NCBI GenBank assembly: GCA_030067055.1
Contig: JASJAL010000325.1
Span: 1-5,788 of the forward strand
Direction: 5' to 3'
Length of the DNA: 5,788 nucleotides
DNA from: Kiloniellales bacterium
Lineage (GTDB): Bacteria; Pseudomonadota; Alphaproteobacteria; Kiloniellales; JAKSBE01
Shown: positions 1-4,131 of the stretch, one piece after another
Layout: the number at the start of each line of letters is the position of its first letter
Numbering within the stretch: the first letter of the stretch is position 1
Made by a program: the position numbers and the translations under genes
Notes under the pieces: generated by a model
Databases searched by the model: none
Told to the model about the DNA's origin: nothing
The model's input: the letters and a program-made list of their open reading frames with translations, nothing else

Positions 1-906
1 GCCCTCGCCGAGCAGCCGAAGGTCATCTTCACCACCTTCGGCGACGCCTTGCGGGTGCCCGGCTCGAAGAAGAGCCTGATGCAGGCCAAGGCCGAGGGCG
101 CCGACGTGCGCATGGTCTATTCGCCCCTCGACGCGCTGCAGCTGGCCCGCGACAACCCGGATCGCGAGGTGATCTTTTTCGGATTGGGCTTCGAGACGAC
201 CATGCCGAGCACGGCCTTGACCCTGCTCCAGGCCGAGGCCGAGGGCATCGAAAACTTCTCGCTGTTCTGCAACCACATCACCATCATCCCGACGATCAAG
301 GCGATCCTCGATTCGCCGGACCTGCGGATCGACGGCTTCCTCGGACCCGGCCACGTCTCGATGGTGATCGGCAACCGGCCCTACGCCTTCATCGCCGAGC
401 GCTACCATCGCCCCCTGGTCATCGCCGGCTTCGAGCCCCTCGATATTCTGCAGTCCATCTGGATGCTGCTGAAGCAGTTCGCCGAGGGCCGCTGCGAGAT
501 CGAGAACCAGTACGACCGCATCGTACCCGGCGAGGGCAACGCCCAAGCCCTGGAAGCGGTCGACAAGGTCTTCGAGCTGCGCGAGTACTTCGAATGGCGC
601 GGCCTCGGGTCGATCGATCATTCCGGGGTGCGCATCCGCAAGGCCTACGCGCGCTTCGACGCCGAGCGCAAGTTCGTGGTGCCGCAGCTCAAGATCGCCG
701 ATCCCAAGTCCTGCCAATGCGGCGAGGTCCTGAAGGGCGTGATTAAGCCCTGGCAGTGCAAGATCTTCGGCAAGGCCTGCACCCCCGAGACCCCGGTCGG
801 GGCCCTGATGGTCTCGAGCGAGGGTGCCTGCGCCGCCCATTACAACTACGGCCGCCTGGACCTTGGCGCGCAGACCGCACCTAAAGAGGAGGCCCTGTCG
901 CGATGA
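1..906 (+). CDS. hypD: Hydrogenase maturation protein HypD (5' partial)
   Basis: The reading frame is open from base 1, so the gene begins upstream of the window. The 301 residues seen correspond to the E. coli HypD sequence from just before FGDAMRVPG to the end; about 80 N-terminal residues, including the CGGH and GPGCPVC motifs, are missing only because of the window edge. Visible family blocks are FGDALRVPG (about 13-21), GLGFETTMP (about 61-69), the NHIT segment, GPGHVSMVIG and GFEPLDIL. The C-terminal cysteine region has C238, C240, C253, C260 and C277 (fragment numbering), which includes the ligands of the [4Fe-4S] cluster, followed by GALMVSSEGAC. HypD is the cytoplasmic iron-sulfur scaffold that, with HypC, carries the Fe(CN)2CO group made with HypE and HypF. 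Its stop overlaps the hypE start (ATGA). A TTG at 49 lies inside the conserved FGDALRVPG block and is not the start. Confidence 0.97.
   Translation, partial: ALAEQPKVIFTTFGDALRVPGSKKSLMQAKAEGADVRMVYSPLDALQLARDNPDREVIFFGLGFETTMPSTALTLLQAEAEGIENFSLFCNHITIIPTIKAILDSPDLRIDGFLGPGHVSMVIGNRPYAFIAERYHRPLVIAGFEPLDILQSIWMLLKQFAEGRCEIENQYDRIVPGEGNAQALEAVDKVFELREYFEWRGLGSIDHSGVRIRKAYARFDAERKFVVPQLKIADPKSCQCGEVLKGVIKPWQCKIFGKACTPETPVGALMVSSEGACAAHYNYGRLDLGAQTAPKEEALSR
883..892 (+). promoter_or_regulatory. Ribosome binding site of hypE inside hypD
   Basis: AAAGAGGAGG, a strong Shine-Dalgarno match, lies within the last codons of hypD with a 10-base spacer to the hypE ATG at 903. It supports that ATG over the internal GTG at 975. 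Confidence 0.7.
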
Positions 907-1985
907 ACCTGCCTCTTCCCCAGGACCAGACATCCGGCTCATCCCGCCGCCGCGCCCGGGTCAGCCTGCCGAAGGTGACCCTGGCTCACGGCGGCGGCGG
1001 CAAGGCCATGCGAGACCTGATCGACGACGTTTTCCTCGGCGCCTTCGACAACCCGGCACTGGCGCCGCTCGAAGATCAGGCCCGCTTCGACCTGGCGGCC
1101 TTGCAGGCCCAGGGTGACCGCCTGGCCTTCACGACCGACAGCTACGTCGTCGATCCTCTGGTCTTTCCCGGCGGCGACATCGGCCGGCTGGCTGTCTGCG
1201 GCACGGTCAACGACCTGGCGGTCGGCGGCGCCCGGCCGCTCTACCTCAGCTGCGGCGTGATCATCGAAGAGGGCTTCCCGGTCGAGGACCTGCGGCGAAT
1301 CGCGGCCTCGATGCGGGCCGCGGCGGACGAGGCCGGGGTCGCGATCGTCACCGGCGATACCAAGGTCGTGCCCAAGGGCGCGGCCGACAAGCTCTTCGTC
1401 AACACTGCTGGGGTCGGTGTGATCCCCGGAGGCATCGAGATCGCCGCCCGGCGTGCGGCGCCCGGCGACCTGGTCCTGGTCAACGGCCTGCTGGGCGACC
1501 ACGGTGCGGCGATCCTCGACGCCCGCGGCGACCTGGCTCTGGACTCGCCCATAGAGAGCGACTGCGCGCCGCTGAACGGTCTGATCGGTGCGATCTTGGC
1601 AATTTGCCCAGAGGTGCACTGCTTGCGCGACGCAACCCGCGGCGGCGTCGCGACGGTGCTCAACGAGTTCGCCCAGGCGGCCGGGGTCGGCATCGAGATC
1701 GAGGAGAGCGCGGTGCCGCTGCGCGAAGAAGTGAAAGGTTTCTGCGAGATCCTCGGGCTTGATCCGCTCTACTTGGCGAACGAAGGGAAGCTTGTGCTGA
1801 TCCTGCCGGAGGACCGGGCCGAGGCGGCGCTTGCCGCGATGCGGGCCCATCCGGCCGGTGCGCACTCGGCGGTCATCGGCCGCGTGCTGCCCGCGCCGGA
1901 GGGGTCCGTCGTGATGAAGACGCTCTTCGGCGGCACCCGCGTGGTCGACATGCTGGTCGGCGACCAGCTACCGCGGATCTGCTGA
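903..1985 (+). CDS. hypE: Hydrogenase maturation protein HypE (thiocarboxamide dehydratase)
   Basis: The 360-residue product matches HypE of the PurM/ThiL-like ATP-binding superfamily. HypE receives a carbamoyl group from HypF on its C-terminal cysteine and dehydrates it with ATP to a thiocyanate, which gives the CN ligands of the hydrogenase iron. Visible blocks are LAHGGGGKAM (27-36), TDSYVVDP (78-85), the GTVNDLAVGGA segment, VTGDTKVV (149-156), DATRGGV (D243 onward), NEGKL, and the terminal PRIC with the acceptor cysteine at residue 360. The ATG at 903 overlaps the hypD stop and has a good ribosome binding site. It gives about 20 residues more at the N-terminus than E. coli HypE, an Arg- and Ser-rich stretch before the first conserved motif. 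The GTG at 975 would give a start closer to the E. coli protein but has no good Shine-Dalgarno. All expected catalytic elements are present. Confidence 0.97.
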   Translation: MNLPLPQDQTSGSSRRRARVSLPKVTLAHGGGGKAMRDLIDDVFLGAFDNPALAPLEDQARFDLAALQAQGDRLAFTTDSYVVDPLVFPGGDIGRLAVCGTVNDLAVGGARPLYLSCGVIIEEGFPVEDLRRIAASMRAAADEAGVAIVTGDTKVVPKGAADKLFVNTAGVGVIPGGIEIAARRAAPGDLVLVNGLLGDHGAAILDARGDLALDSPIESDCAPLNGLIGAILAICPEVHCLRDATRGGVATVLNEFAQAAGVGIEIEESAVPLREEVKGFCEILGLDPLYLANEGKLVLILPEDRAEAALAAMRAHPAGAHSAVIGRVLPAPEGSVVMKTLFGGTRVVDMLVGDQLPRIC

Positions 1986-1998: not shown

Positions 1999-2718
1999 TT
2001 GGAAGGCTTCTTGGTGCTCGGGTTGCTGATCGGCATGCAGCACGCGCTGGAGGCCGACCACCTGGTGGCGGTCGGCACCATGGCCGCCGGCCGGCCGGGC
2101 GGCAAGCGCGGCCTCGCGCTGCGCGGCGCGGTCTGGGGCCTCGGCCATACGATCACGCTCTTTGCGATCTGCTCGGCGGTGATCCTGCTGGGCCTGACCC
2201 TGACCGAGCAGATGGCGGCGGCGCTGGAATTTGGGGTCGGGGTCATGCTGGTCCTGCTCGGCCTCGACGTGCTGCGCCGGATTCGGGCGCAGCGGGTCCA
2301 CTTCCATGCCCACAGGCATCACGGCGGGCGGCCGCATATCCATGCCCACAGCCATCGGGGTGCGACCGCGCCCCATGGCGAGGACCCGCACGCACACCGG
2401 CACCCGGAGAGCTTTCCCCTGCGCGCCCTGCTGGTCGGTCTGGTCCACGGCGCCGCCGGCTCGGCGGGGCTGCTGGCGCTGGCGGTTGCGGCGACCCGCG
2501 AGCCTTGGATGGCGGTCGGCTACGTCGCGGTGTTCGGCCTTGGTTCGATCCTCGGCATGGCGGCGCTGTCCTTCGTCGCCGCCTGGCCCCTGGGCGCGGC
2601 GGAGCGCCGCGCAAGGTGGCTCCACAGCAGCCTCGCGCTCGGCGCCGCCGCGCTCGCGGTCGGGATCGGCATCGACGTCATGGCCGAAACGGCGGCCGTC
2701 GCCTGGGGCGGCACCTGA
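1999..2718 (+). CDS. Nickel/cobalt transporter-like membrane protein with His-rich loop
   Basis: The 239-residue product is an integral inner-membrane protein, probably with six helices (roughly 2-28, 41-66, 73-91, 140-165, 170-196 and 209-229). The first helix contains H15-x4-D20-H21 (HALEADH), the metal-selectivity signature of NiCoT-type and UreH-like nickel/cobalt permeases. GLGHT (47-51) resembles the second NiCoT motif (LGHS/T), and GLVHGAAGSAGLL (147-159) is a further polar-in-membrane motif. The loop between helices 3 and 4 (101-135) holds 13 histidines, a likely metal-binding segment. Classical NiCoT proteins have about eight helices and 300-350 residues, so this is a compact relative, closer to UreH-type proteins. 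Its place between hypE and hypA points to Ni2+ import for hydrogenase assembly; Co2+ cannot be excluded. The start is TTG with a strong ribosome binding site, and the stop overlaps the hypA ATG (TGATG). No symbol is assigned because several names are used for such proteins. Confidence 0.85.
   Translation: MEGFLVLGLLIGMQHALEADHLVAVGTMAAGRPGGKRGLALRGAVWGLGHTITLFAICSAVILLGLTLTEQMAAALEFGVGVMLVLLGLDVLRRIRAQRVHFHAHRHHGGRPHIHAHSHRGATAPHGEDPHAHRHPESFPLRALLVGLVHGAAGSAGLLALAVAATREPWMAVGYVAVFGLGSILGMAALSFVAAWPLGAAERRARWLHSSLALGAAALAVGIGIDVMAETAAVAWGGT
2303..2356 (+). repeat. Imperfect 18-bp direct repeat coding His-rich loop
   Basis: TCCATGCCCACAGGCATC at 2303-2320 recurs at 2339-2356 with one mismatch (C for the second G of the AGG). 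The copies are 36 bases (12 codons) apart and in the same frame. They encode the two halves of the transporter's His-rich loop (HFHAHRHH and HIHAHSHR), which suggests the loop grew by a short in-frame duplication. Confidence 0.6.
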
Positions 2719-2960
2719 TGCACGAGTTCAGCCTGATCCGGAACGTGGTCTCGATCGTCGCAGAGCACGCGAAGGGGCGGAAGGTCCGGCGGATCCGCCT
2801 CGCCATCGGCCCTCTGGCTTGCGTCGAGCGCCGGGCGCTCAGCTTCTGCTTCGACCTCGCTGTGGAGGGGACGGCGCTGGCCGGGGCCAGCCTCGAGTTC
2901 CTCGAGGCTGAGGGCGACACCCTGTTGATCAAGGACTACGAAGTGGAGGAGGCAGCCTGA
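2718..2960 (+). CDS. hypA: HypA-like nickel chaperone lacking the zinc domain
   Basis: The 80-residue product aligns with HypA at both ends. It starts MHEFSL with H2 and E3, the N-terminal nickel site of the family. Residues 31-46 (GPLACVERRALSFCFD) match the E. coli GAFSCVETSSLAFCFD region closely, and 59-65 (LEFLEAE) matches the strand before the zinc domain. The chain then jumps to GDTLLIKDYEVE (66-77), which corresponds to the C-terminal strand that normally follows the zinc domain. The usual two CxxC pairs, some 30-40 residues, are absent; the only cysteines are C35 and C44. Family members are normally about 113-118 residues. The ATG overlaps the transporter stop (TGATG) with only a weak GGGGCGG upstream, so translation is probably coupled. 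The stop overlaps the hypB ATG. HypA normally passes Ni2+ with HypB to the hydrogenase large subunit. Membership is clear; whether this shortened form works is unknown. Confidence 0.88.
   Translation: MHEFSLIRNVVSIVAEHAKGRKVRRIRLAIGPLACVERRALSFCFDLAVEGTALAGASLEFLEAEGDTLLIKDYEVEEAA
2945..2952 (+). promoter_or_regulatory. Ribosome binding site of hypB inside hypA
   Basis: GGAGGAGG lies in the last codons of hypA with a 7-base spacer to the hypB ATG at 2960. It is much stronger than the site before hypA, so hypB may be made in excess of HypA. Confidence 0.65.
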
Positions 2961-3799
2961 TGTGCGGAACCTGCGGATGCGCCGATCCGGCCAACGCCGT
3001 GACGCTCACCGATCCGGATAGCGGCGAGAAATCCCTGCTGCGCCAGGGCGCGACCACGGGTGGGGATCATGGCCACCATCGAGACCATGGCCACGATCAT
3101 GACGTGCCCCACCTGCATGGCCCGGGCGGCGAGGTCGTCACGCTGGAGCAAGCGGTGCTCGCCAAGAACGACCGGATCGCCCTGCGCAACCGCCGCTGGT
3201 TCGAAGGCCGCGGCATTCTGGCGCTCAACCTGGTCAGCTCCCCGGGGGCCGGCAAGACGACCCTGCTGGAGCGATCCATCCGTGAGCTGGCCGGCCGGCG
3301 CGAGATCTCGGTCATCGAGGGCGACCAGATGACCGTCAAGGACGCCGAAAGGATCCGGGCTGCGGGGGCCAGGGCGATCCAGATCAATACCGGGGCGGGC
3401 TGTCACCTGGAGGCCGACATGGTCGCCGAGGCGCTCCGCAAGCTGGACCCGCAACCGGGATCGATCCTGATGATCGAGAACGTCGGCAACCTGGTCTGCC
3501 CGGCCCTCTTCGACCTCGGCGAACGCATGAAGGTGGCCGTGATCTCGACCCCCGAGGGCGACGACAAGCCGCTGAAGTACCCCCACATGTTCCGCGCAGC
3601 CGAATTGGTGATCATCAACAAGCTCGACCTCGCGTCCCACGTCGATTTCGACGAGGAGCGCTGCCGCGAGAACATTCACCACGTGAACCCAGACGCCAGG
3701 CTCTTCGCGCTCTCCGCGCGCAGCGGCGAGGGATTTGGACCCTGGCTCAACTTCCTGATCGGCCATGCAGAGATGATCTCGGTTCGAGACGAGGCGTGA
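2960..3799 (+). CDS. hypB: Hydrogenase nickel incorporation GTPase HypB
   Basis: The 279-residue product is a full-length HypB, a SIMIBI-class GTPase that drives nickel insertion into the [NiFe]-hydrogenase large subunit. The N-terminus is MCGTCGC, matching the high-affinity Ni site CxxCGC of E. coli HypB. A His/Asp-rich stretch follows (36-53, with 8 His), typical of HypB types that also store nickel. The GTPase domain then shows SSPGAGKTT (93-101, P-loop), EGDQMT (120-125), GCHL (147-150) and ENVGNLVCP (173-181), with C148, H149 and C180 as the second metal site at the dimer interface. Next come NKLD (220-223, guanine specificity) and SARSGEG (252-258). No residue needed for GTP or metal binding looks altered. 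It is the last gene of the operon; its stop lies 5 bases from the stop of a convergent gene. Confidence 0.98.
   Translation: MCGTCGCADPANAVTLTDPDSGEKSLLRQGATTGGDHGHHRDHGHDHDVPHLHGPGGEVVTLEQAVLAKNDRIALRNRRWFEGRGILALNLVSSPGAGKTTLLERSIRELAGRREISVIEGDQMTVKDAERIRAAGARAIQINTGAGCHLEADMVAEALRKLDPQPGSILMIENVGNLVCPALFDLGERMKVAVISTPEGDDKPLKYPHMFRAAELVIINKLDLASHVDFDEERCRENIHHVNPDARLFALSARSGEGFGPWLNFLIGHAEMISVRDEA
3065..3100 (+). repeat. 18-bp tandem repeat coding the HypB His stretch
   Basis: Two adjacent 18-base units, 3065-3082 and 3083-3100, share the core CATGGCCAC and encode DHGHHR and DHGHDH. This is a short in-frame tandem duplication inside the His-rich nickel-binding stretch of HypB; the copies have diverged at several positions. 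Confidence 0.5.
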
Positions 3800-3804
3800 C
3801 GGCT

Positions 3805-4131
3805 TCAGGCGTGGCCGACCTGGGGGGTGTGATGGACGCCCTCTTCGGCGGCCGCCAGGGCGGTTCGCAGGAGTTGCACTGAGAGAGATTCCACCGTCGC
3901 CTGGGGCGAAGCGATCATGCGCGAACGGATCGCCATGGCCATTGCGACGGCCTGTAGGACGTCGCCGTTGCTGGTGTCCCCGCCGAGGGAAATGTCTTTG
4001 TCGATCGCGTCGAGAACCGCCGACAGCAACTGCCCTACCCTGACGGCGTCGCGGGTCTCGTCGTGCAGCGGGAAGTCGATGTCGAAGCTGTCGCCACTGG
4101 CCGTGCGCGCGCGATAGGGCAGTTTCTTCAT
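3805..4131 (-). CDS. Hypothetical 108-residue protein
   Basis: I do not recognise this protein. It starts at ATG (4131) with a GAGGAA ribosome binding site about 8 bases before it, and it follows the DUF4149 gene on the same strand by 24 bases, so the two are likely co-transcribed. The N-terminal 25 residues look like a short strand pair (KLPYRARTASGDSFDIDFPL). The rest is probably helical, with DAVRVGQLLSAVLDAIDKDI, a Gly/Asn/Asp turn at about 50-56, then LQAVAMAMAIRSRMI and a final helix at about 80-96. There is no signal peptide, membrane helix or cysteine, so it is probably a small cytoplasmic protein. It is supported as a real gene by its ribosome binding site, its position in the operon and its ordinary composition. 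The stop faces hypB across 5 bases. Confidence 0.75.
   Translation of the reverse strand: MKKLPYRARTASGDSFDIDFPLHDETRDAVRVGQLLSAVLDAIDKDISLGGDTSNGDVLQAVAMAMAIRSRMIASPQATVESLSVQLLRTALAAAEEGVHHTPQVGHA

Follow-up and report, generated by a model that had tools for sequence, protein, structure and literature searches.

A short hypA gene in a 5,788-nucleotide stretch of DNA from a Kiloniellales bacterium (assembly GCA_030067055.1, contig JASJAL010000325.1; the whole stretch is hereafter called the window) probably encodes a functional HypA, naturally devoid of the zinc-binding domain, for a [NiFe]-hydrogenase of the Huc type (group 2a). As described in the literature excerpts consulted, HypA holds nickel with its N-terminal MHE motif, having received it from HypB, and delivers it to the hydrogenase large subunit. 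By computation, the zinc module is cleanly lost, the length of the protein is conserved, the gene is under purifying selection and the nickel domain is predicted to be intact; relatives share a conserved operon, and as a rule the genome has no second HypA. The short HypA is not categorically new; it is a true and conserved variant within a known family, and probably a functional one.

The short HypA and its deletion junction

The gene (2718..2960, + strand) begins with ATG, and its 80-residue product, MHEFSLIRNV...LEFLEAEGDTLLIKDYEVEEAA, has the MHE nickel motif in codons 1-3 and the nickel domain, and no CxxC...CxxC zinc loop. It matches the Pfam HypA family PF01155 at 58.3 bits (cut-off 28.9), over profile positions 1-69 of 112 only, and misses the cut-off of the NCBIfam equivalog TIGR00100 (49.6 vs 88.1 bits); the two zinc-binding CxxC motifs, in the zinc metallochaperone sense of TIGR00100, are absent. 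Against the two full-length homologs that the search yielded (112 and 116 residues), the alignment places a gap of ~32 residues, including both cysteine pairs, between LEFLEAE and GDTLLIKDYE, that is, between codons 65 and 66 (window 2912/2913), after which the sequence picks up again at the last strand. The deletion junction (2907..2918, +) spans codons 64-67 (A-E|G-D), where a predicted hairpin turn replaces the zinc domain. The frame is open, and the last base of the hypA stop is the first of the hypB ATG (TGATG). An earlier sequence-only reading had claimed a retained MHE motif and core, a zinc loop missing between LEFLEAE and the final strand, and an open frame running into hypB, and these results bear it out.

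The same reading held that the nickel domain could still fold, closed by a turn, and structure prediction of the protein alone agrees: the AlphaFold model is a closed nickel domain (predicted local distance difference test score, pLDDT, 94) that superposes on the HypA structure 3a43_B over 80/80 residues. Its strands 58-63 and 69-76 form a hairpin at the deletion, which is predicted to close the domain. Residues M1, H2, E3 and E37 do not vary among 19 aligned short forms, and E37 shares an alignment column with D40 in H. pylori HypA.

Conservation, selection and spread

A search with the window sequence returned 87 homologs, all with an MHE start. Since 84 of them are exactly 80 residues long, and CxxC is present solely in the two full-length ones (116 and 112 residues), the length is not a matter of chance; with one further homolog of 81 residues, relatives of similar length without CxxC number 85/87. 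When an alignment of 19 diverse short forms served as query, 1171 proteins were found, with 80-81 residues among the 120 matches listed. In a scan of genome contigs, 17 loci comprised four with a zinc loop (three Actinoplanes, one Hyphomicrobiaceae) and 13 of the short form. The latter come from Kiloniellales, Tistlia consotensis, Allgaiera indica, Roseovarius and Pseudaestuariivita, and from metagenome-assembled genomes (MAGs) labelled Parvularcula, Erythrobacteraceae, Rhodobiaceae, Marinosulfonomonas and Gammaproteobacteria.

Short hypA is under purifying selection: among 17 genes, the proportion of nonsynonymous differences (pN) lies below that of synonymous ones (pS) in 136/136 pairs (Nei-Gojobori counts). 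The sequence-only reading had offered either a new variant or a decaying gene. Its first branch is upheld by the same length in independent assemblies and isolates, by purifying selection, by the predicted closed fold and by the usual lack of another HypA; its second is contradicted by the conserved length and the selection counts.

Broader samples were scanned for zinc-less forms. Among 398 Pseudomonadota genomes, 98 were over the PF01155 cut-off, and matches above it that end near position 70 occurred only in G006, the centre genome, present in the sample by design, and in G810, where the match is cut by the contig end. A set of 385 Alphaproteobacteria contained 27 that passed the cut-off, seven of them with a zinc-less HypA, namely one of the window type (the centre) and six of a group 3b type compared below. 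In the family to which the Erythrobacteraceae MAG G007 belongs, 11 of 397 genomes passed it, four being of the window type (one of these the centre) and three of the group 3b type.

PF01155 matched nothing but the short form in 12 of the 13 genomes examined (five named isolates and eight MAGs, in which absence is weaker), one genome having two short copies. A backup full-length HypA, for which the sequence-only reading had advised a search, is rejected as an explanation, only the thirteenth genome (G011) having one, on a contig with another hydrogenase. G011 (L011, L068; labelled Gammaproteobacteria) is possibly a mis-binned MAG, and its short-hypA contig is close to Marinosulfonomonas L013 from the same metagenome study.

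A plasmid search located the short form, again 80 residues without a zinc loop, inside a complete Huc operon on plasmid F (28.5 kb) of Sphingopyxis alaskensis RB2256; plasmid pRIdsm_03 of Roseovarius indicus has the same arrangement. In the excerpts of PMC10305171 consulted, S. alaskensis, with a plasmid-borne group 2a hydrogenase (hucL), oxidised H2 to sub-atmospheric levels during growth; HypA is not mentioned in those excerpts on the hydrogenase, and no literature linking strain, hydrogenase and HypA was found. Two other genomes with a HypA identical to that of S. alaskensis have one PF01155 match each. The sequence-only reading is extended by the Huc-type operon in relatives, the adjacent permease gene and the presence of the form in a bacterium with demonstrated hydrogenase activity.

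The Huc-type operon

In relatives, short hypA is part of an operon for a Huc-type (group 2a) [NiFe]-hydrogenase. Of 13 short-HypA genomes, 12 gave a [NiFe] large subunit, and one such operon encodes a small subunit that matches 7uur, Huc of M. smegmatis (E 1.4e-156). The large and small subunits at a Kiloniellales MAG locus (L062) are 84% and 90% identical to their S. alaskensis counterparts. Across ten loci containing both hucL and short hypA, the operon starts with a regulator, a small zinc-ribbon protein, the small subunit, the large subunit, two small Cys-containing proteins and a protease; continues with a 105-residue protein, a TPR-like protein, two small proteins (membrane-like by eye), a NifU-Rieske protein and an NHL-repeat protein; and ends with hypF, hypC, a SIS protein in some, hypD, hypE, the permease gene, hypA and hypB. 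A Huc-like large subunit (>1100 bits) occurs in four of the 385 Alphaproteobacteria, in otherwise similar operons; HypA is short in one of these genomes and full-length in the other three.

The window holds the end of this order on the + strand: hypD (1..906; 5' end cut by the window; TIGR00075, 418 bits), an intact hypE (903..1985; TIGR02124, 465 bits), a NicO-like nickel permease gene (1999..2718) whose stop overlaps the hypA ATG, hypA itself, and hypB (2960..3799; 279 aa, with an N-terminal MCGTCGC motif, a His-rich stretch and the G domain). Directly after hypB lies a 108-residue open reading frame (3805-4131, - strand) without a Pfam or NCBIfam match, and a frame with a closely similar start occupies the same place at L064:5856-6182.

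Several further features of the operons were observed. The two adjacent Cys-containing proteins after hucL (128 and 110 aa; L062:13517-14246, -) are mutually similar and occur in the Huc operons compared; in L057, the single operon scanned for them, they matched no known family. The TPR-like gene at L129:7064-10456 matches in two parts separated by 2.4 kb, which looks like the effect of an insertion. The SIS-domain (GmhA-like) gene between hypC and hypD (L054:6043-6693 and L061:6915-7625, both -; also L129, L132 and L133) is absent from other Huc operons.

Trees and origin

In a HypB tree of 41 rows, the partners of the short form make up one clade (18 rows, support 100/99) beside the HypBs of full-length Huc clusters and Actinoplanes. 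Loci without HypB were left out (L141, the full-length loci L083, L084, L087, L091 and L138, and nine group 3b loci); at L141 (G404:C1:1986166-1986802), hypB seems split over two frames and short hypA is open. The short HypAs likewise form one clade (15 rows, 99/99) beside full-length Huc-type HypAs, in a tree of 47 rows picked from those available and 85 columns, with few columns and long branches, that of group 3b included. Because HypB partners and short HypAs each form one clade, the sequences suggest that the zinc module was lost once in the short form, probably in the alphaproteobacterial Huc lineage, and that the form then spread with the operon, partly on plasmids. A common clade of the window-type and group 3b zinc-less HypAs is rejected (p-AU 0.012).

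The permease slot and coupling to hypB

A permease gene stands directly before hypA at 20/20 short loci (19 by tblastn, L058 by direct reading) and before none of 29 distinct full-length hypA genes, with an upstream stretch of mostly 1.5 kb searched. The queries came from short loci, so that self-matches are among the hits, and only NicO- or HupE-like genes were detectable. The full-length set comprised 31 loci, reduced to 29 by the same-gene pairs L088/L129 and L086/L131; L081 has a stop codon inside hypA, L086/L131 offered only ~0.7 kb upstream, and the G011 gene L018 was left out. Off-position hits occurred at two of the 31 loci, HupE-like 5.5 kb upstream at L016 and NicO-like after hypB at L088. 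Since the seven permeases scanned from the slot are HupE_UreJ (two, 172 and 174 bits) or NicO-like (three over the cut-off, two below), the slot is occupied by two families. At 14/20 loci the hypA ATG overlaps with a stop codon, in the window and S. alaskensis the permease's own, and hypA and hypB overlap by one base in 16 and abut in four of the 20, with the HypB start taken as MC...

Proposed mechanism and its weak points

The short HypA would still bind nickel via Met1-His2-Glu3, with Glu37 in place of H. pylori Asp40, and its nickel domain alone would still dock HypB and the hydrogenase large subunit. S. alaskensis gives indirect support to nickel binding, HypB docking and a need for the short form in hydrogenase maturation. 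A co-translated permease may import nickel locally and the His-rich HypB may store it, so that nickel stays high at the chaperone; because nickel would be supplied locally in this way, the zinc module would no longer be needed for affinity and sensing and would be dispensable. According to the excerpts consulted, zinc-site Cys mutants of H. pylori HypA bound nickel more weakly and kept 9-60% of hydrogenase activity, and adding nickel could rescue a hypB mutant. It may even be, at well below an even chance, that permease, HypA and HypB constitute a translationally coupled nickel relay with direct handover to a zinc-free pair, the zinc domain being a sheddable affinity and sensing module lost at least twice, once in the Huc type with permease and HypB and once in group 3b without HypB.

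A number of points weigh against a functional zinc-less HypA in a Huc system or against this mechanism. HucS and HucL stand beside the hyp genes in relatives; they were not seen in the window, whose left edge cuts hypD. The window permease scores 22.2 bits against NicO, below the Pfam cut-off of 27.7, and in the Kiloniellales MAG (L002/L062) the permease is internally deleted to a ~69-residue remnant (L062:3333-3524, -). A NicO-like gene also lies downstream of hypB in a full-length Huc cluster (G392). The permease link is one of gene presence only, within one clade of shared ancestry; the 20 short loci are accordingly not independent, three having identical HypA. No permease hit was found near the group 3b zinc-less hypAs, so permease supply is no general rule for zinc loss. 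Nor is a His-rich HypB specific to the short form, because the MCxxCGC motif and His-rich stretch occur in HypB of both short- and full-length-HypA clusters. In the excerpts on H. pylori, three of four zinc-site Cys-to-Ala mutants dropped to 9-12% of hydrogenase activity and the fourth to 36%, and the zinc site therefore matters in at least one organism. The S. alaskensis short HypA is known from the plasmid record, the chromosome lying outside the search coverage, and the literature yielded no biochemistry of the short form.

Alternative explanations

The zinc module might be supplied in trans by another operon protein, which we consider improbable. The best candidate is the ~72-residue zinc-ribbon protein (HWCSxC...ECPxCGNRHG; L057:17884-18102, -, with counterparts at other loci) encoded between the regulator and hucS. 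Its CxxC...CxxC ribbon is conserved, its gene is present at all 13 short-HypA-genome loci containing the region before hucS (two of them plasmids), and hhalign aligned it with full-length HypA at 87% probability over 25 columns on the zinc loop. However, zinc ribbons match one another generically, the profiles are shallow, and the one member scanned matched no Pfam family over the cut-off. The gene is also present in 3/3 Huc clusters with a zinc-domain HypA (L129, L130 and L132); because it is equally present there, the ribbon protein did not arise as a replacement, and trans supply was dropped as the leading explanation.

Slightly less probable still is a short HypA that carries no nickel and acts only as a scaffold docking HypB on the large subunit, with HypB or free nickel delivering the metal. 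The excerpts of PMC7055735 consulted present HypA as a probable scaffold for HypB on HycE, and a His-rich HypB and a permease are at hand, but all 19 aligned short forms share M1, H2, E3 and E37, and the MHE start is universal among the 87 proteins. A pseudogene decaying beside intact neighbours is suggested only when the gene is viewed singly, with its ~32 missing residues, and is highly implausible given constant length and a conserved MHE over many taxa, pN<pS in every pair, a confident predicted closed fold and tight coupling to hypB in 20/20 loci. An assembly error or a deletion private to the contig has a negligible chance, the same form occurring at 13 loci of other assemblies and on the complete plasmid records of S. 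alaskensis and R. indicus; independent assemblies and conservation exclude error, private deletion and decay alike.

Significance and comparison with known systems

The zinc part of HypA is probably not essential everywhere. A review, in the excerpt consulted, states in general that HypA always has a zinc-binding part; a zinc-less family contradicts this statement and makes it testable. With a natural zinc-less family in an atmospheric-H2 oxidiser, the role of the zinc site can be tested by comparison and domain grafting, and the short HypA would define a minimal nickel chaperone for a Huc-type hydrogenase. Literature searches for short, truncated or zinc-less HypA found neither the Huc-type nor the group 3b form described.

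Canonical HypA/HybF (PF01155; T. kodakarensis 3a43/5aun, H. pylori 6g81/2kdx) shares with the short HypA the MHE start, the nickel-domain fold and the adjoining hypB, whereas the short form has no zinc domain and misses the TIGR00100 cut-off. The group 3b zinc-less HypA (L101-L106, L142-L144; 87-93 aa) is a separate clade in group 3b-like operons of another hydrogenase type, and HypB was over the cut-off in 0/9 of its genomes, whereas the window type has HypB. Also close are the full-length HypAs of other alphaproteobacterial Huc operons (L088/L129, L086/L131 and L132; the operon of one such genome, G356, is split over two contigs), which, with their HypB partners, are the tree neighbours of the short-form proteins. 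Their operon and gene order are otherwise very similar, but they retain both the zinc loop and its cysteine pairs and have no permease gene between hypE and hypA.
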